From assembly GCA_910574865.1 (NCBI GenBank), contig CAJTDN010000006.1, positions 186,001 to 250,000 on the forward strand: 64,000 bases of DNA, in the 5' to 3' direction. This document shows positions 1 through 32,203 of the stretch, one piece after another. A model generated the notes under the pieces. It saw only the letters and a list, made by a program, of their open reading frames with translations. It was not told the DNA's origin and did no database searches. The translations under genes were made by a program, and so were the position numbers. Position 1 is the first letter of the stretch. Each line of letters begins with the position of its first letter. The DNA is from Lachnospiraceae bacterium (GTDB taxonomy: Bacteria; Bacillota; Clostridia; Lachnospirales; Lachnospiraceae).

Positions 1-1291
1 CCGGCGCGGCGTAATCCATCAAGTATTCCTTCAATGTCATCAGCGCGTTGGGATGGCAGCAGTTTTGAATCTGCCCGCTCTTGCAAAGCGACATGAAGCG
101 GTCCCCGGTGCGCCCTTCCCGGTAACATGCCGTGCAGAAGCTGGGAATGTAGCCCATCTCCATCAGCCAGCGCACGACCTCGTCGAGGGAGCGCGTGTCG
201 CTGACGTCGAACTGCTCCGACTTGGCATCCTCCGGCTCCGGTTCGTAATAGCCGCCCACGCTGGTGCGGGAACCGCCGCTAATCTGGGAAATACCGAGGT
301 GCAGGACGCGTTCCCTGGTCTTCTGGTTCTCCCTCGTGGAAATAATCATGCCGGTGTATGGCACGGCAATGCGGATGCAGGCCACCAGCTTGGCAAAAAT
401 ATCGTCGTCGATGCCATTGTCAAACTGGTCCGGGTCAATGTCGTCGGCCCGTTTCAGCCTCGGCACGCTGATGGTGTGCGGCCCCACGCCAAAGGCGGCC
501 TCAAGATGTTCCGCGTGCATCAAAAGCCCGGCGAACTCGTAACGGTATTTGTCCAAACCGAAAAGCACGCCCACGCCCACGTCGTCAATGCCGCCCTCCA
601 TGGCACGGTCCATGGCTTCCGTGTGGTAATCGTAATCGTGTTTCGGCCCCGTGGGATGGAGCTGCAGGTAGCTTTCCTTGTGGTAGGTCTCCTGGAACAA
701 AATGTAGGTGCCGATGCCAGCCTCCTTCAACAGCCGGTAATTGTCCACGGTGGTGGCGGCGATGTTGATGTTGACACGGCGGATTGCCCCGTTTTTATGC
801 TTGATGCCGTAAATCGTGTCAATGCATTTTAAATAATATTCCATCGTGTTGTGGACCGGGTCCTCCCCGGCCTCCAAGGCCAGCCGCTTGTGTCCCATGT
901 CCTGCAGGGCGACGACCTCCCGCCGGATTTCCTCTTGTGTCAGCTGCTTGCGTGCAATGTGCTTGTTTTTGGCATGGTAAGGGCAGTAGGTACAGCCGTT
1001 GACACAATAATTGGACAAGTAGAGCGGGGCGAACATGACGATGCGGTTTCCGTAGAAATCCTTTTTAATCTGCTCGGCCAGCCTGAAAATTTCCTCGTTC
1101 TTTTCCGGAATGTCGCAGGCCAAAAGCACGGATGCCTCACGGTGCGACAGCCCCTTGCGCAGTTTCGCCTTTTCAATCAGGGCGTCAATCAGTTCGAGGT
1201 TGTCCTTGTTCTCGTCCGCGTAGGAGAGCGTTTCCAGAATCTCCCCGTGGTTGATAAAATCTTCCGCATGTTTTGAATTCACGTCATACAT
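1..1291 (-). CDS. hydG: [FeFe]-hydrogenase maturase HydG (C-terminus beyond window)
   Basis: Radical-SAM enzyme that cleaves tyrosine to make the CO and cyanide ligands of the [FeFe]-hydrogenase H-cluster. Read on the minus strand, the protein starts MYDVNSKHAEDF and runs 430 codons to the window edge; HydG is usually about 470 residues, so roughly the last 40 are missing. The radical-SAM cluster motif CVNGCTYC (CX3CX2C) is present. The auxiliary-cluster motif CX2CX22C (starting CTACYREGRTGD) lies near the visible C-terminus. The ATG at 1291 follows a strong AGGAGGAG ribosome binding site at about 1301-1308. The TM1266-type gene lies upstream on the same strand, with a duplicated structured repeat between them. 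hydE and hydF are not in view and may lie further left. Family assignment is firm. Confidence 0.95.
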   Translation of the reverse strand, partial: MYDVNSKHAEDFINHGEILETLSYADENKDNLELIDALIEKAKLRKGLSHREASVLLACDIPEKNEEIFRLAEQIKKDFYGNRIVMFAPLYLSNYCVNGCTYCPYHAKNKHIARKQLTQEEIRREVVALQDMGHKRLALEAGEDPVHNTMEYYLKCIDTIYGIKHKNGAIRRVNINIAATTVDNYRLLKEAGIGTYILFQETYHKESYLQLHPTGPKHDYDYHTEAMDRAMEGGIDDVGVGVLFGLDKYRYEFAGLLMHAEHLEAAFGVGPHTISVPRLKRADDIDPDQFDNGIDDDIFAKLVACIRIAVPYTGMIISTRENQKTRERVLHLGISQISGGSRTSVGGYYEPEPEDAKSEQFDVSDTRSLDEVVRWLMEMGYIPSFCTACYREGRTGDRFMSLCKSGQIQNCCHPNALMTLKEYLMDYAAP

Positions 1292-1312
1292 AATAAAATC
1301 CTCCTCCTATGA

Positions 1313-1512
1313 GCACTTGGCATCCGTCCTTAGGATGCTTAGTGCGAATGGACTCCGCGCACCTTGGCGAGGCGTGGCCGAGGCTAGTTAAGCGGAGTAA
1401 CCTTGCGTCCAGGCACTTGGCATCCGTCCTTAGGATGCTTAGTGCGAATGGACTCCGCGCACCTTGGCGAGGCGTGGCCGAGGCTAGTTAAGCGGAGTAA
1501 CCTTGCGTCCAG
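1313..1512. repeat. Two exact tandem copies of a 100-bp structured element
   Basis: Units 1313-1412 and 1413-1512 look identical, and a third copy begins (GCACTTA) where the upstream gene stops. On the + strand each unit has an outer GCACT/AGTGC pair enclosing GCATCC/GGATGC (hairpin 1), then ACTCCGC paired with GCGGAGT around about 35 nt (hairpin 2). Read along the minus-strand mRNA, the array lies between the TM1266-type gene and hydG and ends with GCCAAGTGCTCA directly before the hydG ribosome binding site. A diverged copy at 2609-2780 holds the same position before proC. Confidence 0.9.
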
Positions 1513-1516
1513 GCAC

Positions 1517-1762
1517 TTAGTATTTGGCATATATGGTTTTTGTGCTTACCCCGGGCAGCATTCCCAGTTTGCCGGACAAGGCGCTGATCACGTCTCCCGG
1601 CGCGTCCAGGGCGACGCTGATGATGGACAGATCCTTTTCCCGATAGGGGATGCCCATCCGTCCGATAATGTATTGCCCATACTGGCTGAGCAGGTGGTTG
1701 AGCTCGTCCACGGAATCGTGGCTGTTTAGGACGATGCCGACGAGGGCAATCCTTGTATCCAT
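1517..1762 (-). CDS. TM1266-type putative iron-only hydrogenase system regulator
   Basis: Small 81-residue ferredoxin-fold (ACT/NikR-C-like) protein, MDTRIALVGIVLNS to KTIYAKY. This family is typically encoded beside hydE/hydF/hydG and is annotated as a putative regulator of the iron-only hydrogenase system; its biochemical role is not settled. Seen here: the N-terminal beta strand RIALVGIVL, a VDELNHLLSQYGQYIIGRMGIP segment (split here only as a description of positions 18-39), and a C-terminal strand GVSTKTIYAKY. The ATG at 1762 follows GGAG; a longer in-frame extension to 1858 lacks family similarity. The stop TAA (1517-1519) sits on the edge of the 100-bp repeat array. Together with hydG it forms a leftward operon. 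Confidence 0.85.
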   Translation of the reverse strand: MDTRIALVGIVLNSHDSVDELNHLLSQYGQYIIGRMGIPYREKDLSIISVALDAPGDVISALSGKLGMLPGVSTKTIYAKY

Positions 1763-1782
1763 GTCATTCTCCTTTCTGAACA

Positions 1783-1806
1783 AAGAGTTTCGCCTGCGAA
1801 ACTCTT
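1783..1806 (-). promoter_or_regulatory. Perfect 11-bp inverted repeat in the hyd operon leader
   Basis: AAGAGTTTCGC, a two-base centre, then GCGAAACTCTT, lying about 20 bp upstream of the TM1266-type start codon and just before its ribosome binding site. It could be an operator or a leader hairpin. There is no T-tract, so it is not a standard terminator. Confidence 0.5.
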
Positions 1807-2265
1807 GCGCCGGGCGCGGCCGCATGAGCGACAAAGTTCTCTTCGCGTCCGTGCGCATCCTCCCGTAGGGTTTTGTGGTGGGGGAACGATGTTTCCACCA
1901 TCACAAAAATGCCCATGCCAGAAAATGGGTTCTGACAAGGACATCATGAAAAACGCAGATACGCGATTTGCACTCCCCGCATGTTTAAGAACGGAAAAGT
2001 CAATTATTTACGTCTGTTTCATTATCAGCATGGTCATCATGAGCCTTCTTACGCAGGTACGTATTTCCCGCCCTTTGTAATCAGAACCGCTTTCTTGCAA
2101 AACGGCCTTATTGGCCGTTCCACCGTATTAGGATAGCATGCCTGACATAAAATTTCAATAGGATTTTTCGATTTGCGTATAATTTCAATCGGCATGAAAG
2201 CCCCGGGAATGATAGAATACGTCCAAGGGAGTGTAAATGTTTTTATTCCTTTTTGTGAGGAGGCA

Positions 2266-2274
2266 TGGTATACT
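2266..2274 (+). promoter_or_regulatory. Extended -10 promoter element upstream of acyP
   Basis: TGGTATACT, an extended -10 (TGN plus TATACT), with no good -35 at normal spacing. It lies about 30 bp upstream of the acylphosphatase start. The same TG-N-TATANT form recurs upstream of other genes in the window. Confidence 0.5.
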
Positions 2275-2303
2275 GTTGCTATCTTTATGAAGGGAGGACC
2301 GGG

Positions 2304-2573
2304 ATGGCAGAGGTAAGAAAACGCATTACGTTTCATGGGCGGGTGCAGGGCGTGGGTTTCCGATTCACGGCCAAATGCATGGCCCGTTCGCTGGGACTGG
2401 CGGGCTGGGTAAAAAACGAGTGGGACGGCACGGTGCTGATGGAGGTGCAGGGGCGGGAGCCGATGATCGACAAGCTGTTGGTGGGGCTCAACCGCAACCA
2501 GTTCATCCAGATTGAATGGCTGGACACGGAGGAAATCCCGTTGGACACGGAGCAGGGATTTGAGGCGAGATAA
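2304..2573 (+). CDS. acyP: Acylphosphatase
   Basis: 89-residue cytoplasmic enzyme that hydrolyses carboxyl-phosphate bonds in small acyl phosphates. The signature GRVQGVGFR (residues about 13-21) carries the phosphate-binding loop and catalytic Arg. The second conserved block GWVKNEWDGTV (about 36-46) contains the catalytic Asn; the family usually has GWVRN there. The ATG at 2304 has a strong GAAGGGAGG ribosome binding site; an in-frame GTG/ATG 13 codons upstream has none. The length is typical. The 100-bp repeat and then proC follow on the same strand, so co-transcription with proC is possible. Confidence 0.95.
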   Translation: MAEVRKRITFHGRVQGVGFRFTAKCMARSLGLAGWVKNEWDGTVLMEVQGREPMIDKLLVGLNRNQFIQIEWLDTEEIPLDTEQGFEAR

Positions 2574-2608
2574 CGCGCGGGGAACCGAAATTTCACGGCG
2601 TGGCAGAA

Positions 2609-2780
2609 GCGAAACCACCTTGCCAAGGTGCGCGGAGTACATTCGCACGTAGGCGTTCAGAGAACAAACGCCAAGTGCTCAAGGTAAGGAAACTCCGCGC
2701 AACTAGGCGCGAAACCACCTTGCCAAGGTGCGCGGAGTACATTCGCACGTAGGCGTTCAAAGAACAAACGCCAAGTGCTC
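2609..2780. repeat. Second locus of the 100-bp structured element (about 1.7 copies)
   Basis: GCGAAACCACC recurs at 2609 and 2709, a period of exactly 100 bp. Reverse-complemented, the units align over their full length with those at 1313-1512: GCACTTGGC, GTGCGAATG, ACTCCGCGCACCTTGGC and CTAGTT are shared. The large stem here is 10 bp (ACTCCGCGCA with TGCGCGGAGT). The small hairpin is GGCGTT/AACGCC instead of GCATCC/GGATGC, so the pairing is kept while the sequence changes. Along the mRNA the element again ends GCCAAGTGCTCA a few bases before the ribosome binding site, here that of proC. Confidence 0.85.
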
Positions 2781-2799
2781 AAAGTAAGGAGGAGTCAAT

Positions 2800-3594
2800 A
2801 TGAAATTGGGATTTATCGGGACTGGAAACATGGCGGGAGCCATCATGGGAGGGATTATTAAAAAAGGAATCATGGCGCCATCGGAAATCATCGGGTCGGA
2901 CGTTTCCGCGGCAGGACGTGACAGGACGCGAGAGACGTATGGTATCTGCGTGACGGAGGACAACGTCGAGGTGGTGAGGAAGGCGGAGACGGTGTTTTTG
3001 TCCGTGAAGCCGCAATTTTACCCGGCGGTAATCGAACAAATCAAAGGGGCGGTGGGGGAAAGCCAGCTGATTGTCACGATTGCCCCGGGCAAGACGCTCG
3101 ACTGGCTGAAGGGGCAATTCGGGAGAGAATTGAAAATCGTCCGCACGATGCCAAATACCCCGGCGATGGTCGGAGAGGGGATGACGGCGGCCTGCCCGAA
3201 CGAGAACGTGACCGGGGAGGAACTTTCTCACGTGCTGGACATTTTAAACTCGTTTGGGAAGACCGAAGTGGTGGCGGAACATTTGATGGACGCGGTGGTG
3301 TCCGTGAGCGGCAGTTCGCCGGCATACGTCTTCCTGATGATCGAAGCGATGGCCGACGCCGCGGTGGCCGGTGGGATGCCAAGGGCGCAGGCCTACACGT
3401 TTGCGGCACAGGCGGTGTATGGAAGCGCGAAAATGGTTTTGGAGACCGGGAAGCACCCGGGAGAACTCAAGGACATGGTGTGCTCGCCCGCGGGAACGAC
3501 GATAGAGGCGGTACGCGTGCTGGAGGAAAAAGGATTTCGAAGCGCGATGATAGAGGCGATGAGGGCCTGCGCGGAAGTATCAAGAAAATTGTAA
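2800..3594 (+). CDS. proC: Pyrroline-5-carboxylate reductase
   Basis: Last step of proline synthesis: NAD(P)H-dependent reduction of 1-pyrroline-5-carboxylate. The 264-residue length is normal. The N-terminal Rossmann motif GFIGTGNMAGA is at residues 4-14. The conserved blocks VKPQFYPAV, RTMPNTPAMVGEGMT and SVSGSSPAYVF are present, and a C-terminal dimerisation helix region contains VCSPAGTTIEAVRVLEEKGF. The ATG at 2800 follows AAGGAGGAG. It is preceded by the tandem 100-bp element and followed by a strong terminator, so it is the end of a unit that may begin at acyP. Confidence 0.96.
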   Translation: MKLGFIGTGNMAGAIMGGIIKKGIMAPSEIIGSDVSAAGRDRTRETYGICVTEDNVEVVRKAETVFLSVKPQFYPAVIEQIKGAVGESQLIVTIAPGKTLDWLKGQFGRELKIVRTMPNTPAMVGEGMTAACPNENVTGEELSHVLDILNSFGKTEVVAEHLMDAVVSVSGSSPAYVFLMIEAMADAAVAGGMPRAQAYTFAAQAVYGSAKMVLETGKHPGELKDMVCSPAGTTIEAVRVLEEKGFRSAMIEAMRACAEVSRKL

Positions 3595-20088: not shown

Positions 20089-22287
20089 ATGCGGGAATGG
20101 TTTGCAAAATTGAATCGAAAAAATTTGGTCGTTGCATGGCTGCTCGGCACGTTTTGCAGCTGTGGCTTGATGCTGTCCTTGACAAGCGAGGCCACGAAGC
20201 AAAATAGCCATGGGTTGGATTTGAAAAATGAAATGCTCGTGTACGTCCGCACGTTGTATTTGTCCTTTTCATCCGACCGGCTTCGGACGTTCCTTTTGCT
20301 GTTGGCGGTTGCCGTGGTGGTTTATTTGGGGCGGCAATTACAGGGGAGTGCCAAAGAACGGGTTTTGTTGTTTTTGTTTTCGGGTTCGTTTGCCCTGGCG
20401 CAGCTATTGAGCATGAGTTATAAGTCGGCAGGGTCGTGGGACTTGTTGTTTGAAACGGATGTAAATCGGACGCGGGCGTGGTTCAAGGGGCTTTCCCTCG
20501 CGATTCTTTGCTACTACGTATTGAAAATTTTGTGCCATTTCGTGAAGACGTATTTGGTGCAGGATGCCGTGGCCGGAGCGGGCAAAGTGCATGAGGCCGG
20601 GAGTGCCGCGCGTGAGAGCGGTTTTGGCGCGACCGAAGCGGGTAAAGTGCTTAAGGCCGGGAGCAATACGCGTGGAAATAGCGCGGGAGCGGCCTGGGCG
20701 GGTGATAATCATCGGCGGGAATCTGTCGCGGACTTGTCCGGGATGCCACGGGAATCTGTCGCGGACTTGTCCGGGATGTTGCGGGAATTTGTCGCGAATT
20801 TGTCCGGGACGTTGCAAAACTGGTTGTTGAGGGCGCGGGCAATTCTGGCAAACGAGGTTTCCGCACGCGCGTTTTGGCTGTCGGTCGGCCTGACGTTTTT
20901 GTGCTGGCTGCCGTATTTCGTCATTTTTTATCCGGGGACGAGCAACGAGGACACCGTGATCCAGATGATGGAGTTTTTCCATATCCGCAGTTACATCAAT
21001 GACATGACGGCGGCGGCCTGGGCGGATGCGTTCATCACGAACCACCATCCGTATTTGCTGACGCTTTTGTTCGGTGGCTTCATCCGGCTGGGACTTTTTC
21101 TCGGTGACATCCGCCTGGGCGTGGCGTTGTATTCTTTGTTGCACATGTTGTTTTTGGCCTGCACGTTTTCGGGAGCCTCGCTGTATTTGAAATACGTGGG
21201 GGTATCCAGGCGGCGGGTGGGAACGGTTCGGTGTTTGGTCGCGTTTTTGCCCATTTTTCCCTTATATGGCATCTGCATGGTGAAGGACACGATATATGCG
21301 GCGTTTTGCCTGGGGTACATTTTGATGATGTACGAGGTGGCCAGGACGCGCGGGGAGGCGCTAAAATCCGTGAAGTTTGACACGGGATTGTTTGCGTCGG
21401 GCCTTTTGATGACGCTGACCAAGGTGTATGCCATGTACATTTTGCTCATCGTGGGCGTGGCGTACGTGCTGCATTACCGTAAATATGCGTTGCGCACGGT
21501 GGCGGCCGTCTTCCTGCCGGTCATGTTGTACAAGTTCATGTTCGTCGGGGTATTATTGCCCGCGCTTGGCGTGGCCCCGGGCGGTATCCAGGAAGGGCTA
21601 AGCGTCCTCATCCAGCAGACCTCGCGTTACGTGGTCGAATATGGCGGCGAGGTGACGGACGAGGAGCGGGCGGCGATTGACGCCGTCCTGGTGTATGACG
21701 ACATTCCCGAGGACTATAATTCGGAACTTTCCGACCCAGTGAAGGAGAAGTGGCGGCAGGATTATACGCGGGAAGAGCTTTTGGCGTATTTTGAGGCATG
21801 GCTTAAGATGTTTTTTAAGCACCCGGACGTGTACGTGGAATCTCTTTTGCACAACACGTACCAGTATTACGACGTCAACAAGATTTCCAGTCTGGAGTAT
21901 TACGAGTTTAACCGTTATTTGCAGGATGAATATGACGTGGACGGGGAATATTCCTGGCTGTACGTGGAAAACGAAGAACGGTTTTTGGAGGAACGCTACG
22001 TGGTCAACCAGCTCGTGTTGTTTTTGCAGAAGCTTCCGGGGCTGAACATTTTCATGTCGATGGGATTTTTGCCGTGGATTTTGTGGTTTTTCATTTACTT
22101 GTACGTGTTCCGCGGGGAGGGGCGGTACGTGGAAGGCTTGTTGGTTCCGATTGTCACTTTCGCCGTCTGCCTTGTGTCACCCGATAACGGGAATTACCGC
22201 TACATCATGCCGATTCTGTTCGCGCTGCCGTATTTGGGGGCGTTGGTGTTGGTGCGGCGGGAGAAATTAATCCCGGAAAAACTTTAA
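20089..22287 (+). CDS. Large polytopic membrane protein (DUF6020-like, GT-C-type)
   Basis: 732 residues with many hydrophobic segments. Conserved-looking blocks are IFYPGTSNEDTVIQMMEF, FITNHHPYLLTLLFG and VKDTIYAAFCLGYIL, matching membrane proteins of the DUF6020 type and resembling lipid-linked-sugar GT-C glycosyltransferases with an acidic loop after the first helices. Between an N-terminal helical bundle and this core (about residues 160-245) lies a hydrophilic, repeat-rich insertion including three copies of an 11-residue repeat. The ATG at 20089 follows GGAGGGAAG; an upstream extension to 19990 lies over the promoter. It is followed by a GT2 and a GtrA gene, consistent with lipid-linked sugar transfer. 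Confidence 0.72.
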   Translation: MREWFAKLNRKNLVVAWLLGTFCSCGLMLSLTSEATKQNSHGLDLKNEMLVYVRTLYLSFSSDRLRTFLLLLAVAVVVYLGRQLQGSAKERVLLFLFSGSFALAQLLSMSYKSAGSWDLLFETDVNRTRAWFKGLSLAILCYYVLKILCHFVKTYLVQDAVAGAGKVHEAGSAARESGFGATEAGKVLKAGSNTRGNSAGAAWAGDNHRRESVADLSGMPRESVADLSGMLREFVANLSGTLQNWLLRARAILANEVSARAFWLSVGLTFLCWLPYFVIFYPGTSNEDTVIQMMEFFHIRSYINDMTAAAWADAFITNHHPYLLTLLFGGFIRLGLFLGDIRLGVALYSLLHMLFLACTFSGASLYLKYVGVSRRRVGTVRCLVAFLPIFPLYGICMVKDTIYAAFCLGYILMMYEVARTRGEALKSVKFDTGLFASGLLMTLTKVYAMYILLIVGVAYVLHYRKYALRTVAAVFLPVMLYKFMFVGVLLPALGVAPGGIQEGLSVLIQQTSRYVVEYGGEVTDEERAAIDAVLVYDDIPEDYNSELSDPVKEKWRQDYTREELLAYFEAWLKMFFKHPDVYVESLLHNTYQYYDVNKISSLEYYEFNRYLQDEYDVDGEYSWLYVENEERFLEERYVVNQLVLFLQKLPGLNIFMSMGFLPWILWFFIYLYVFRGEGRYVEGLLVPIVTFAVCLVSPDNGNYRYIMPILFALPYLGALVLVRREKLIPEKL
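20716..20814 (+). repeat. Three 33-bp in-frame tandem repeats in the DUF6020-like gene
   Basis: Units 20716-20748, 20749-20781 and 20782-20814 encode RESVADLSGMP, RESVADLSGML and REFVANLSGTL. The preceding 130 bp also contain a weaker duplication (AGKVHEAGS / AGKVLKAGS). Confidence 0.9.
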
Positions 22288-23756: not shown

Positions 23757-24743
23757 ATGAAAAAAATCATGATTACCGGGTTTTCCGGGTTCGTGGCCAG
23801 GCATTTTTTAGAATATTTGCATGGGGAGGGGCTTTCCTATAAGGTGCTGGGGGCGGATATCAAGGAGCCGGAGCTGGATTTGCCATGCCATGGGCCGGTT
23901 TTAGATGTTCGATTTGAAAAGCTGGACATGCTGGACGCGGATGCCCTGCGACGGGTGGTTCGCGGGTTTCGGCCCGATTATGTGTTGCATTTGGCGGCAT
24001 TTTCCAGTGTGGCTTACAGCTGGAAATATCCATCGGCCTGTTTTGACAATAATACCAAGATATTCTTAAACCTGGCCGATGCCCTGCGTGCGGAACAGTT
24101 GGATTGCCGCGTGTTGTCGGTCGGCTCGTCGGAGGAATACGGGGACGTCGCGCCGGGTAAGCTGCCGCTCGTGGAGGGGATGCCGTTAAGCCCGGTCAGC
24201 CCTTACGCGGTGGCCAGGGTGGCACAAGAAATGATGTCGAAGGTGTTCGTCAATGGATTTGGCATGAAAATCATACTGACCCGTTCTTTTAACCATATCG
24301 GGCCGTACCAGGACGAGCGGTTCGTGATTCCGGGATTCATCAGGCGGATTTTGAATCTCTCGGCGATGGAGGGCGAGATTGAGACGGGAAACACGGGAAT
24401 CGTGAGGGATTTTTTGGACGTGCGGGACGTGGTGCGGGCGTATTACTTGTTGCTGACGGAAGGGACGCCGGGCGAGGTCTATAACATTTGCTCGGGAAAG
24501 GGCGTCCGGCTTTCGGAGGTGATTGAAAAAATCGCCGACATTGTGGGCGTTTCGGTGACGGGGAAGGTCAATCCGGCGTTCGTGCGGCCCGGAGACAACC
24601 AGGCCGTGGTCGGCTCGGCCGCGAAAATCGAGGCGGAGCTTGGCTGGACACCGCAAATCCCACTGGAGGAGACCTTGAAGGACATGGTAGAATGTATGCG
24701 TCAAGACGGCCCGCCAGCCGGGGCGTCTTGCGCCGGGAAGTGA
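23757..24743 (+). CDS. NAD(P)-dependent sugar-nucleotide epimerase/dehydratase/reductase
   Basis: 328-residue extended SDR. The cofactor motif is TGFSGFVARHF. The active-site region has SVGSSEEYGD and SPYAVARVAQE, giving Tyr with Arg where most family members have YxxxK; Arg appears regularly in the GDP-mannose-dehydratase/reductase-like subgroup. RSFNHIGP and IVRDFLDVRDVVRAY are further family blocks. The nearby ManC and ManB genes point to a GDP-sugar substrate, such as the reductase making GDP-rhamnose, but no Gmd is in view. The last 20 or so codons form the first part of a 146-bp tandem repeat that continues past the stop. Confidence 0.85.
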   Translation: MKKIMITGFSGFVARHFLEYLHGEGLSYKVLGADIKEPELDLPCHGPVLDVRFEKLDMLDADALRRVVRGFRPDYVLHLAAFSSVAYSWKYPSACFDNNTKIFLNLADALRAEQLDCRVLSVGSSEEYGDVAPGKLPLVEGMPLSPVSPYAVARVAQEMMSKVFVNGFGMKIILTRSFNHIGPYQDERFVIPGFIRRILNLSAMEGEIETGNTGIVRDFLDVRDVVRAYYLLLTEGTPGEVYNICSGKGVRLSEVIEKIADIVGVSVTGKVNPAFVRPGDNQAVVGSAAKIEAELGWTPQIPLEETLKDMVECMRQDGPPAGASCAGK

Positions 24744-25039
24744 CGGGGCGAAGCCGGTCGGGCCATTGCCGGAGGCAATTTGAAATGGCCGGACGGCTGC
24801 CATGGCCGCCGGAGGCGGGCCATGGCGACATGGTAGAATGTATGCGTCAAGACGGCCCGCCAGCCGGGGCGTCTTGCACCGGGAAGTGACGGGGCGAAGC
24901 CGGCCGGGCCATTGCCGGAGGCAATTTGAAATGGCCGGACGGCCGCCATGGCCGCCGGAGGCGGGCCATGGCGACATGGTAAAATGTATGCGTCAAGACG
25001 GCCCGCCAGCCGGGGCGTCTTGCACCGGGAAGTGACGGG
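24681..25039 (+). repeat. 146-bp tandem repeat (about 2.4 copies) spanning the epimerase 3' end
   Basis: GACATGGTAGAATG begins units at 24681 and 24827 and, with one change, at 24973; both periods are 146 bp. Unit 1 carries the true end of the epimerase reading frame. Units 2 and 3 repeat that end as noncoding DNA. Each full unit contains hairpins: CAAGACG/CGTCTTG, TTGCC/GGCAA and GCCATGGC/GCCATGGC. The last copy stops just before the manC ribosome binding site. It is not a CRISPR, because the copies are contiguous. Confidence 0.92.
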
Positions 25040-25051
25040 AGGATTTTGAGG

Positions 25052-26119
25052 ATGAAGGTATACGGGGTGATTATGGCAGGCGGCGGCGGTACGCGGTTCT
25101 GGCCGCTGTCCAGGCAGGAGGAGCCGAAGCAGCTTTTGAACTTGAGCGGCAAGGACTTGATGATTAACGAGACGATTGACCGTGTCCGTACCATGGTGGC
25201 GGAGGAAGACATTTTCATCGTGACAAATCAGACCCAGGTGCCAAAAATGAAGGCCGTGACGGCGGGGCGCGTCCAAGAGGACCATGTCCTTTCGGAACCC
25301 TGCGCGCGTAACACGGCGGCCTGTATCGGCTACGCCGCGTTTGAAATTTTGAAAAAGCATGGCGACGGCATCATGTGCATTTTTCCGTCAGACCATTTTA
25401 TTAAAAACCAGGCCGAGTTTACCCGCGTCCTTGGCATGGCGGTGGAGACGGCCGAGAGCGAGGACGTGCTGGTGACGCTGGGCATTACTCCCGCCTGCCC
25501 GGCCACGGGGTACGGTTATATCAAGTTTGACAAGAAGGATTCGGGACTGGCCAAGATTGTCCTGGAGTTTCGGGAGAAGCCGGATTTGGAGACGGCGAAG
25601 CGTTATCTTGCGAGCGGGGAATACGCGTGGAACAGCGGGATGTTCATCTGGCGGGCCTCCACGATTTTGCGTTATTTTGAAGAATTGTTGCCGGACGTTT
25701 ACGCGTGCCTGGAGGAAATTGCCGGCGCGATGGGCGCTCCCGGGGAGAGGGACGTGATTGCCCGCGTATATCCGACGATTCCGAGTATTTCCATTGATTA
25801 TGGCATCATGGAAAAATGTCCGGACGTGCGGGTGATTTCGGCGGAATTTGGTTGGGACGACGTGGGCAGCTGGGACAACCTGGGTGTCTTGTACGAGGCG
25901 GACGAAAACGGGAACGTGACGGTCGGCGACCAGATTAACATAGACACGAAAAATTGTATTTCCTACGCGAAGAAGCGGCTGATTACCACGGTGGGGGTGG
26001 AAAACCTGATTATCGTGGAGACGGACGACGCGATTCTGGTTTGCGACAAGACGCGTTCGCAGGATGTCAAGATGGTGGTTGAGGAATTGAGGCGCCAGGG
26101 GCGGGACGCATGGCTGTGA
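25052..26119 (+). CDS. manC: Mannose-1-phosphate guanylyltransferase
   Basis: 355-residue GT-A-fold nucleotidyltransferase making GDP-mannose from GTP and mannose-1-phosphate. The N-terminal motif MAGGGGTRFWPLSR and the sugar-binding FREKPDLETA and EYAWNSGMFIWRA match ManC. The EFGWDDVGSWD block is diagnostic. It lacks the phosphomannose-isomerase domain of bifunctional forms. The ATG at 25052 was chosen with GGGAGG 10 bases upstream; a TTG at 25046 is possible. The last codons run into a 36-bp tandem repeat array that leads to the mutase gene, giving a GDP-mannose supply pair. Confidence 0.93.
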   Translation: MKVYGVIMAGGGGTRFWPLSRQEEPKQLLNLSGKDLMINETIDRVRTMVAEEDIFIVTNQTQVPKMKAVTAGRVQEDHVLSEPCARNTAACIGYAAFEILKKHGDGIMCIFPSDHFIKNQAEFTRVLGMAVETAESEDVLVTLGITPACPATGYGYIKFDKKDSGLAKIVLEFREKPDLETAKRYLASGEYAWNSGMFIWRASTILRYFEELLPDVYACLEEIAGAMGAPGERDVIARVYPTIPSISIDYGIMEKCPDVRVISAEFGWDDVGSWDNLGVLYEADENGNVTVGDQINIDTKNCISYAKKRLITTVGVENLIIVETDDAILVCDKTRSQDVKMVVEELRRQGRDAWL

Positions 26120-26270
26120 CGGAGGAAGTGCCGTGAAGAAGCCGGGGGTTGTGACGGAGGAAGTGCCGTGAAGAAGCCAGGGGGTTGTGACGGAGGAAGT
26201 GTCGTGAAGAAGCCAGGGGGCTGTGACGGAGGAAGTGCCGTGAAGAAGCCACGTGGCCGTGACGGTGGAA
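26115..26270 (+). repeat. 36-bp tandem repeats carrying a ribosome binding site and GTG
   Basis: The TGTGACGGAGGAAGTG core occurs at 26115, 26150, 26186 and 26222, and in a diverged form at 26258 (one step of 35 bp, the rest 36 bp). Each unit contains GGAGGAAGTG(C/T)CGTG, i.e. a good Shine-Dalgarno followed at about 6 bases by GTG. From the unit at 26168 onward the GTG frame stays open into the mutase gene and encodes KKPGGCDGGSVV-type repeats. It probably arose by repeated duplication of the intergenic start region. Confidence 0.88.
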
Positions 26271-26296
26271 GCGTGAGGGAAATGTCGGAGGGCGTG

Positions 26297-31077: not shown

Positions 31078-32069
31078 TGGGGAAAATGAGAAGGCGAAGG
31101 ACATTTTTACATAGGGCGGAATCATTTTCAGCGTGCGTGCCCGTGGGAATCGGGAAAGGGCGCGGGACGTGCCGGCGCACGGGAAAATCATTTCTGGCGT
31201 GCGCGGCGGCCGTGCTCGTGCTGTGCCTGGCATGTGGCGGACTTGTGTTTGCGGGCGGGCCGGCAACGGACGCGGGGGAACCGATGACGCTGGAGAGCGT
31301 GGGAGAGCCGCTGCCAGACGGGGCGGATTCGGCACTTCTGGAAAATCCGGCGGGGCGCGCCTGCGTGATTGACCAGGCGGGACTCTTGGACGCGGAGGAC
31401 GTGGCATTGCTCAACGAAGAATGCGAGCGTCTTTATGAGGCATACGGCGTGCTTGTTGCCATCGTGACGGTCGACGATTTTGGCGGCGGGGATATTTTGG
31501 ACTGGCAAATCCGCGTGTTCAGGGAAGACCCGTTCGGAATGAGAGCACAGGACGGCGTGATGTTGGCAATCAGTATGGCGGATCGCGATTGGGGAATCCA
31601 GACGTTTGGCAGCGCGCAGAGGGCGTTTAACACTTACGGGAGGGAACGAATCGGCGAAATCGTGTTGGAGAGCCTTTCGGACGGGGAGTACTACGACGCG
31701 CTTGACGATTTTGTTGGCCTGTGCGGACGATTCCTTAAGGAGGCGGAGAAAGGGAAGCCTTATTCTTCGGAGCACCCTTATCGAAAGAGCGTGCCGGTTT
31801 GGATAATCGTGGCGGTTTCCTTCGTGGCATCGTTCGCGGTGTCATTTGGAATCGTGAGCGTTTGGAAGAAGGGCATGAACACGCAGGTGCAAAGAATCGG
31901 GGCGGACGAGTATTTGAAGCCCGGCAGCTTCCACCTGACGCGGTCGTCGGACATTTTCTTGTACCATACGGTGAGCCGCAGCCCGAAACCGAAGGCGGAC
32001 AGTAGCAGTAGCAGCGGGGGGAGCTCGGGCATGAGCTCCACGAGTTCGGGAACAAGTGGAAAATTTTGA
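31077..32069 (+). CDS. TPM-domain membrane protein (YdjH/YgcG-like)
   Basis: 330 residues. After an N-terminal hydrophobic segment (about 40-60), the extracytoplasmic TPM domain runs from about 95 to 225: CVIDQAGLLDAEDVALLNE, VLVAIVTVDDFGG and a DGVMLAISMADRDWGIQTFG block. A second membrane helix (VPVWIIVAVSFVASFAVSFG) and a Ser/Gly-rich C-terminal tail follow, as is usual in the family. The start ATG shares one base with the preceding stop. By analogy with B. subtilis it would pair with the zinc-ribbon protein to recruit the SPFH protein encoded next. Confidence 0.85.
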   Translation: MGKMRRRRTFLHRAESFSACVPVGIGKGRGTCRRTGKSFLACAAAVLVLCLACGGLVFAGGPATDAGEPMTLESVGEPLPDGADSALLENPAGRACVIDQAGLLDAEDVALLNEECERLYEAYGVLVAIVTVDDFGGGDILDWQIRVFREDPFGMRAQDGVMLAISMADRDWGIQTFGSAQRAFNTYGRERIGEIVLESLSDGEYYDALDDFVGLCGRFLKEAEKGKPYSSEHPYRKSVPVWIIVAVSFVASFAVSFGIVSVWKKGMNTQVQRIGADEYLKPGSFHLTRSSDIFLYHTVSRSPKPKADSSSSSGGSSGMSSTSSGTSGKF

Positions 32070-32203
32070 TTACAGTGCCACAATGAGGATGGAGTGGGGT
32101 GAAGCCCCATGGGAATCCGAATTGTGGGTAGGATTGCGAGGGCGCATGGCGCGGGGCAATCCGTAATCAAAAAATAATGTGAGAAAGGAAATGGTGAAAA
32201 ATC

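Follow-up and report, generated by a model that had tools for sequence, protein, structure and literature searches.

A dispersed family of hairpin-forming tandem repeats that end in the Shine-Dalgarno sequence of the following gene in a genus of Lachnospiraceae

Results

Two tandem arrays precede hydG and proC

The window, which is the whole 64,000-nucleotide stretch of Lachnospiraceae DNA analysed here, carried two tandem arrays within its first 3 kb. Array 1 was read on the minus strand, downstream of a TM1266-family gene and upstream of hydG, whose identity was given by TIGR03955 with 936 bits on the full gene taken from locus L296. Array 2 was read on the plus strand; an acylphosphatase-like gene lay upstream of it and proC downstream. 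A sequence-only reading had described two tandem loci with a period of exactly 100 bp, which was confirmed by TRF, and the internal match of arrays 1 and 2 was 100% and 97%, respectively. The features are listed in Table 1, where G002 is a congener of the window's genome (G000), R1 and R2 are covariance models of the A and the B hairpin, and the window coordinate equals the position in locus L296 minus 555.

Table 1. Positions of the arrays, their parts and the adjoining genes in the window
Feature	Position	Strand	Basis
Tandem array 1, period 100, 2.1 copies	1313..1518	-	TRF
Array 1, gene-proximal B hairpin and tail including the SD of hydG	1299..1351	-	R2 match, L296:1854-1906
SD of hydG, 3' end of array 1	1300..1308	-	sequence; unchanged in G002 beside the homologous array
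Array 1, A hairpin (ACTCCGC/GCGGAGT with kernel)	1346..1402	-	R1 match, L296:1901-1957
Array 1, second B hairpin	1402..1451	-	R2 match, L296:1957-2006
Array 1, second A hairpin	1446..1502	-	R1 match, L296:2001-2057
Tandem array 2, period 100, 1.8 copies	2609..2790	+	TRF
Array 2, first A hairpin, lacking its 5' arm	2586..2644	+	weak R1 match, L296:3141-3199, 21.2 bits
Array 2, first B hairpin	2639..2692	+	R2 match, L296:3194-3247
Array 2, A hairpin	2688..2744	+	R1 match, L296:3243-3299
Array 2, gene-proximal B hairpin, tail and SD	2739..2792	+	R2 match, L296:3294-3347
SD of proC, 3' end of array 2	2786..2792	+	sequence; array-free proC of G002: ATTAAGGAGGG before the start
hydG, 5' part in the window	2..1291	-	TIGR03955 on the full gene from L296; ORF
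TM1266-family gene upstream of array 1	1517..1858 (ORF as listed)	-	TIGR03959, residues 36-110
Acylphosphatase-like gene upstream of array 2	2265..2573	+	NCBIfam matches below curated cut-offs
proC, downstream of array 2	2800..3594	+	TIGR00112

Along the mRNA the order of the parts was the same in both arrays, namely the A hairpin (ACTCCGC/GCGGAGT), a linker NCATTC, the B hairpin, GCCAAGTGC and the Shine-Dalgarno sequence (SD); in each unit the 3' part read as B hairpin, a TCA-tail with GNA, and then AAGGA or GGAGG. The paired change from GCATCC/GGATGC to GGCGTT/AACGCC between the arrays and the longer A stem of the second array were found as claimed in that reading. Its alignment of the units over their whole length held except for the first unit of array 2, which lacks the 5' arm of the A hairpin. 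The same orientation along the mRNA was also found for both arrays. The repeats, described there as ending within a few bases of the SD, take in the SD, which is formed by the last bases of the repeat itself.

At gathering score, no Rfam family matched the arrays in the window. Weak matches to uup RNA (RF03060) at 2683-2747, one on each strand, were at chance level (E about 0.6; 20 bits against a gathering score of 36.8), and a scan of 12 loci with Rfam returned tRNAs only.

Several other elements were present in the window. A Clostridiales-1 RNA (RF01699, 67.6 bits) was located at 32067-32169 on the plus strand. A 146-bp tandem repeat (24681-25039, 2.5 copies, 98%) seems to be a copy of the 3' end of the upstream gene and is placed directly before the SD of the next gene. 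Tandem repeats of 33 bp (20715-20815) and of 36 bp (26112-26271, overlapping ORFs) were also detected.

The arrays belong to a large dispersed repeat family

Further copies were sought in this genome and its relatives, and many were found. The core pattern, with up to two mismatches, had 48 matches in G000, and the reversed pattern had none. Two covariance models were then used, R1 from 36 sequences and R2 from 27 sequences. R1 matched at least 139 times in G000, 51 times in the congener G001, 74 times in G002 and 4 times in G011, and R2 at least 105, 56 and 72 times in G000, G001 and G002; these counts are minima because the scoring covered 150 candidates per genome. Of the 12 genomes that represent the genus, G000 among them, all but G005 had R2 matches in this covariance search (11 genomes); the eight besides G000, G001 and G002 had 1 to 16 each. 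Both arrays of the window are therefore members of a large dispersed repeat family.

The A-type hairpins shared the kernel CTARGCTCG-N3-9-ACCTCGCYAAG with 20 set bases. The exact kernel was found in 84 of 397 Lachnospiraceae genomes (75 copies in G000, 118 in G414), and the reversed control gave 0 in each of them; the outer stems and the kernel spacing varied by lineage. Arrays contained one to four tandem units, and modules A, B, C and D occurred in several orders. The copies within one array were nearly identical. Between arrays of different loci, the best exact match had a median of 33 and a maximum of 75 bases, compared with 10 and 12 for upstream pieces of equal length. A 15-base pattern searched over genome contigs gave, among the matches listed, mostly single ones from unrelated phyla, which were taken as chance. 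In viral contigs, the kernel searched as two patterns was found in 0 and 2, and the 15-base core in 26.

Relatives of other form were also observed. At L299, L304 and L306 (contigs C7, C9 and C10 of G000) a longer relative (GTAACATCCACTCAACTAGGCTCG...CGGGATGGGCTTTC) was found away from any SD, and at L299 the same place was occupied in G002. An insertion into 5S rRNA at these loci was considered and rejected, since no 5S match was obtained. G414 (L443-L472) had many copies of two-kernel elements (CAAGTTACG..CGAACTTG, CATAACACGCA..TGCTCC), some of which, among 13 loci viewed, directly followed a stop codon or preceded terminator-like hairpins. In G294 (L473-L501) the arrays alternated CTAAG and CTAGG kernels at a spacing of 45 bp and bore TATAAT-like boxes on the other strand.

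Paired changes support the hairpins

The units of the A and B alignments were selected as clean. In the R1 alignment of the A hairpin, 7 of 15 pairs were changed on both sides, and 92.6% of cells paired compared with 89.3% after shuffling and at most 45.6% in slid controls; its 14 further pair types were matched by 76 of 500 shuffles. For the B hairpin (R2 alignment) 8 of 12 pairs were changed on both sides, and 95.4% of cells paired against 84.2% and at most 42.6%. The 12 further pair types of B were fewer than in shuffles (15.5) because the swaps were mostly C-G/U-A with few wobbles.

A short helix, N-N', was formed by the linker base N and the base just before the SD tract. Among units of G000, G001 and G002, chosen by a pattern that demanded the B stem, the N-N' pair was Watson-Crick (A-U, G-C, C-G) in 82 of 97 units and, counted per locus and strand, in 71 of 78, compared with a shuffled mean of 40.3, and this value was reached by 0 of 5000 shuffles. 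The kernel R-Y pair was Watson-Crick in 178 of 189 distinct kernels. Covarying pairs, proposed as a check from the four units of the window, were recovered in A, B, N-N' and the kernel R-Y pair. The unpaired kernel bases of the A alignment were as strictly kept as the paired ones, and in longer units the B stem seems, by eye, to enclose both an A hairpin and a C hairpin.

Wobble pairs were counted for the strand on which the structure may act. A hairpins leaned to the sense strand (26 G-U vs 8 A-C), whereas B stems (4 vs 13) and N-N' (1 vs 8) leaned to the other strand; among the kernels collected, those of other genera favoured the sense strand by 4 to 1 and those of this genus the other strand by 0 to 6. 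Owing to this disagreement, the assignment of a functional strand from wobble pairs was rejected.

The 3' end of the repeat is the Shine-Dalgarno sequence of the following gene

In G000, 69 regions with matches were examined, some of which overlap their neighbours (L287/L288, L296/L297). In 61 of the 69 arrays, an ORF of 60 codons or more, with an SD before its start codon, began on the same strand no more than 45 nt downstream; ATG was the start codon in 52 of these 61, and the commonest distance was 7-9 nt past the end of the model. The reversed control (other end, other strand) gave 4 of 69, so the placement of many copies before ribosome binding sites in one orientation, put forward from the two window arrays, was upheld. 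Random same-strand positions in the same loci passed the placement test at 27.9%, which is a loose estimate, as GTG/TTG codons inside genes are also accepted. The stop codon of a same-strand ORF lay within 120 nt upstream of 44 of the 69 arrays. Two of the 8 exceptions (L293, L309) adjoined a tRNA-Cys gene, and copies in G004, G006 and G011 (L241, L252, L260) ended at the 5' ends of tRNA genes. A unit is made up of a shared kernel with two or three stem-loops about it (A, B, C/D); such units are dispersed before genes, and the 3' end serves as the SD of the gene.

The exact kernel was also used as an anchor. In G000 a same-strand start followed within 125 nt in 39 of 47 arrays, and a start on the other strand in 6. 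Within 75 nt, a same-strand start was found in 2 of 20 other genera (first locus of each), in 0 of 18 cases in G414 and in 2 of 10 in G294, where 6 of 10 had a start on the other strand; one G294 locus is counted in both the 20-genera and the G294 lists. At L354, in another genus, the kernel did sit before an SD as judged by eye. Since the kernel is mostly elsewhere in other genera, SD placement is a habit of the genus more than of the kernel.

Among the downstream proteins, 30 of 63 were scanned and 22 of these matched a family, including DnaB, AIR-synthase-like, agmatine-deiminase-like, SipL, beta-galactosidase-like, RmlD-like, HydG and ProC. Neither a common function nor a transposase was found in the 30 scanned proteins, and the related downstream function that characterises riboswitches and regulon leaders was absent from them. 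The gene dnaB is essential in other bacteria.

Computed openness of the Shine-Dalgarno sequence depends on the array

Openness was computed for 56 of the 69 loci, namely those with ATG and a recognisable SD (Table 2).

Table 2. Computed probability that the SD is unpaired (mean of 56 loci)
Sequence upstream of the SD	Mean	Native compared with it
Native array	0.615	
Dinucleotide-shuffled array (12 shuffles each)	0.439	higher in 47/56, p 2e-7
Reverse-complemented array	0.366	higher in 45/56, p 8e-8
Upstream genomic DNA in place of the array	0.512	higher in 35/56, p 0.009
Arrays swapped among loci	0.579	higher in 31/56, p 0.11
No array	0.71	lower, two-sided p 1e-4

The SD was more open without any array, and the array is therefore not free of cost. 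The loss of openness was small for the array in sense orientation and far larger for the inverted one, so that selection can account for the single orientation; regulation is not established by this. An effect of the array on translation is plausible, since the computed openness depends on the sequence and the orientation of the array.

Sites are occupied or empty among congeners

The sample of G002 comprised 60 stretches (about 1.18 of 4.2 Mb) and 11 regions picked for arrays. A downstream match was found in this DNA for 28 of the 69 G000 arrays. Seven matches that were too short or weak were set aside (L264, L273, L278, L292, L293, L306, L325), and also outside the comparison were L277, which is rearranged, and L299 and L309, which are non-SD copies in both genomes. 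Based on reading of the sequences, the 18 comparable SD sites were divided into 9 empty, 7 filled and 2 remnants in G002, a comparison in which the 11 array-picked regions favour 'filled in both' and stretches C9 and C10 were chosen in the knowledge of arrays there. Empty sites with an SD-like tract were L274, L275, L285, L286, L294, L297 (proC), L305, L319 and L327; the sites filled in both were L266, L276, L280, L291, L296 (hydG), L307 and L311; and partial copies were left at L308 and L320. When L266, L276 and L291, which are known solely from the array-picked regions, were omitted, 9 of 15 sites were empty.

Filled sites were often unlike in unit content between the two genomes, and L317 of G000 differed from L244 of G002 by one extra unit exactly at GTAAGGA^GG. 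Within the genus, two of the 11 genomes read at hydG (G000, G002) had an array there, as did two of the 10 read at proC (G000, G009), counts which leave out the proC start of G007, one hydG fragment of G001, and G011 (no match). The proC array of G009 (L508) was of another subtype, with 4 copies at a period of 92 bp, and sat at the same SD as the proC array of the window. The probable direction of these changes, gain or loss, was assigned by parsimony, without a species tree.

Discussion

A structured, tandemly copied and dispersed element, joined to the gene at its SD and present in one congener while absent from another, is in our judgement probably an insertion element of the same kind as BOX and REP, non-autonomous, built of modules and able to form hairpins. 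It would enter the SD tract, carry an SD of its own and lengthen by tandem duplication. REP elements and BIMEs, which are associated with RAYT transposases, are short imperfect hairpins in many intergenic copies that are often clustered. Imperfect hairpins in many intergenic copies were found here as well; the differences are the single orientation with a fixed place at the SD and the missing link to Y1/RAYT. The Y1 transposase (PF01797) was not found in 3 of the 8 genomes searched (G002, G294, G215), and the kernel lay beside only 1 of the 18 Y1 matches in the 8 genomes, unlike a repeat that flanks its transposase gene. No mobilising gene for the repeat was identified among the transposases searched for, which were those of the Y1 type.

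BOX elements of Streptococcus pneumoniae (boxA-boxB-boxC) are described in the passages available to us as many-copy composites with a middle module in variable tandem number, which form stable stem-loops if transcribed and are inserted into one another (PMC3049150, PMC10969869). The present family resembles them, as far as these passages go, in its modular composition (A, B, C, D, with 1 to 4 units per array, the number of tandem units varying), its stem-loops, its copy number and its nested insertion. The terminal inverted repeats of BOX, which resemble those of an IS (PMC3049150), were not found in 13 units. This comparison relies on published descriptions and not on BOX sequence, and SD placement does not appear in those passages on BOX. 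MITEs, ERIC and Correia elements are likewise described, in the part of PMC3049150 consulted, as small non-autonomous folded repeats that can affect the transcripts they enter; the likeness ends at the terminal inverted repeats, for which 7.5 of 20 identities were counted in the 13 units compared with 6.7 in shuffled ones. The repeat is of the dispersed-hairpin kind and unusual in sitting inside the SD, and no membership of a known family is claimed. Integron attC sites were rejected for want of conserved AAC/GTT ends, judged on sequence only, and a phage or plasmid origin was also set aside: array 1 had no blastn hit among plasmids, and viral contigs gave the few kernel and core matches stated above. 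In the literature, searched by narrow queries, no account of this repeat was found, and one may be in print.

Several other explanations were weighed. One is a processing or stability signal: hairpins that are cleaved, or that stop an exonuclease coming from the 5' side, would provide the following cistron or tRNA with a 5' end of its own and be kept where helpful. This would agree with the arrays that follow same-strand stop codons, with the copies adjoining tRNA 5' ends in G000 and congeners, and with one kernel at L358 of another genus just before an apparent 16S gene, so read from its 5' sequence. Mobility would still be needed for the presence/absence pattern, and we regard this signal as an unlikely main cause. 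The idea of a cis-acting regulatory RNA, a leader or attenuator that controls the translation of a regulon through SD-adjacent hairpins, draws on the uniform orientation, the SD adjacency, the covarying helices including N-N' beside the SD, and the variation of computed openness with the array. It is nevertheless improbable, for the scanned downstream genes are unrelated, half of the comparable sites in G002 have no array, swapping arrays among loci hardly alters SD openness, and no Rfam family matches. In the sequence-only reading both a cis-acting intercistronic RNA element and a dispersed repeat selected for that site had been suggested. The SD-side placement and the covariation of the former were borne out and its sense of a regulator was not, and the latter is well supported, both by the presence/absence among congeners and by the 30 scanned proteins, which have no theme in common.

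Two further proposals concern how the sequences arose or move. Paired changes could stem from mutation, with template switching that perfects palindromes, in place of selection on RNA or DNA structure; the few sense-strand wobbles of B stems and N-N' and the near-identical copies within an array point this way, yet the A hairpins show the opposite wobble bias and, in the A alignment, unpaired bases of the kernel vary as little as its paired bases, so that we give this little credence. Movement of a REP-like element as single-stranded DNA by a Y1 transposase (IS200/IS605 or RAYT) would suit the imperfect hairpins with a strict kernel, the Watson-Crick swaps with few G-U pairs in B stems, and AAGGA at both junctions, as expected if each cut were made behind an identical short site. 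Read on its other strand, the kernel has CGAG/CGAG, which is a tandem G-A motif, and such motifs are stable in DNA. The absence of Y1 matches from three copy-rich genomes and the single kernel found near a Y1 match do not support the link, and we consider this mode very improbable.

Under the preferred reading of a BOX/REP-like insertion element, the unit would insert into the purine-rich SD tract at about TAAGGA^GG, and a putative trans-acting factor would recognise the folded kernel and drive the insertion. The copy's own 3' GTAAGGA would re-form the SD, so that the gene would survive, while inverted insertions would be lost because the SD would be masked. The array would then act, either as a by-product or as an adopted function, as a spacer that folds upon itself and keeps most of the openness of the SD. 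At several sites an AAGGA-like tract was present on both sides of the element, which may have arisen by duplication of the target or may belong to the element, and the placement at SDs may come either from insertion into SDs or from selection after random insertion.

A bolder version is offered tentatively, as a possibility we would not bet on: a mobile family that targets the SD itself by recognition of AAGGA^GG and re-creates it from its 3' end, a portable translation spacer whose kernel is a family-wide building block placed at other expression signals in other genera. If this were true, the family could spread through many translated genes without loss of their function. Dispersed repeats would be expected to avoid or break the key bases of translation, and this family occupies them in dozens of genes, a dnaB-like gene included. 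The pairs of sites with and without an array between close species offer natural material for measuring how translation, mRNA ends and the balance within operons respond to a structured insertion next to the SD, and the kernel, apparently undescribed, is present in 84 of the 397 sampled Lachnospiraceae genomes.
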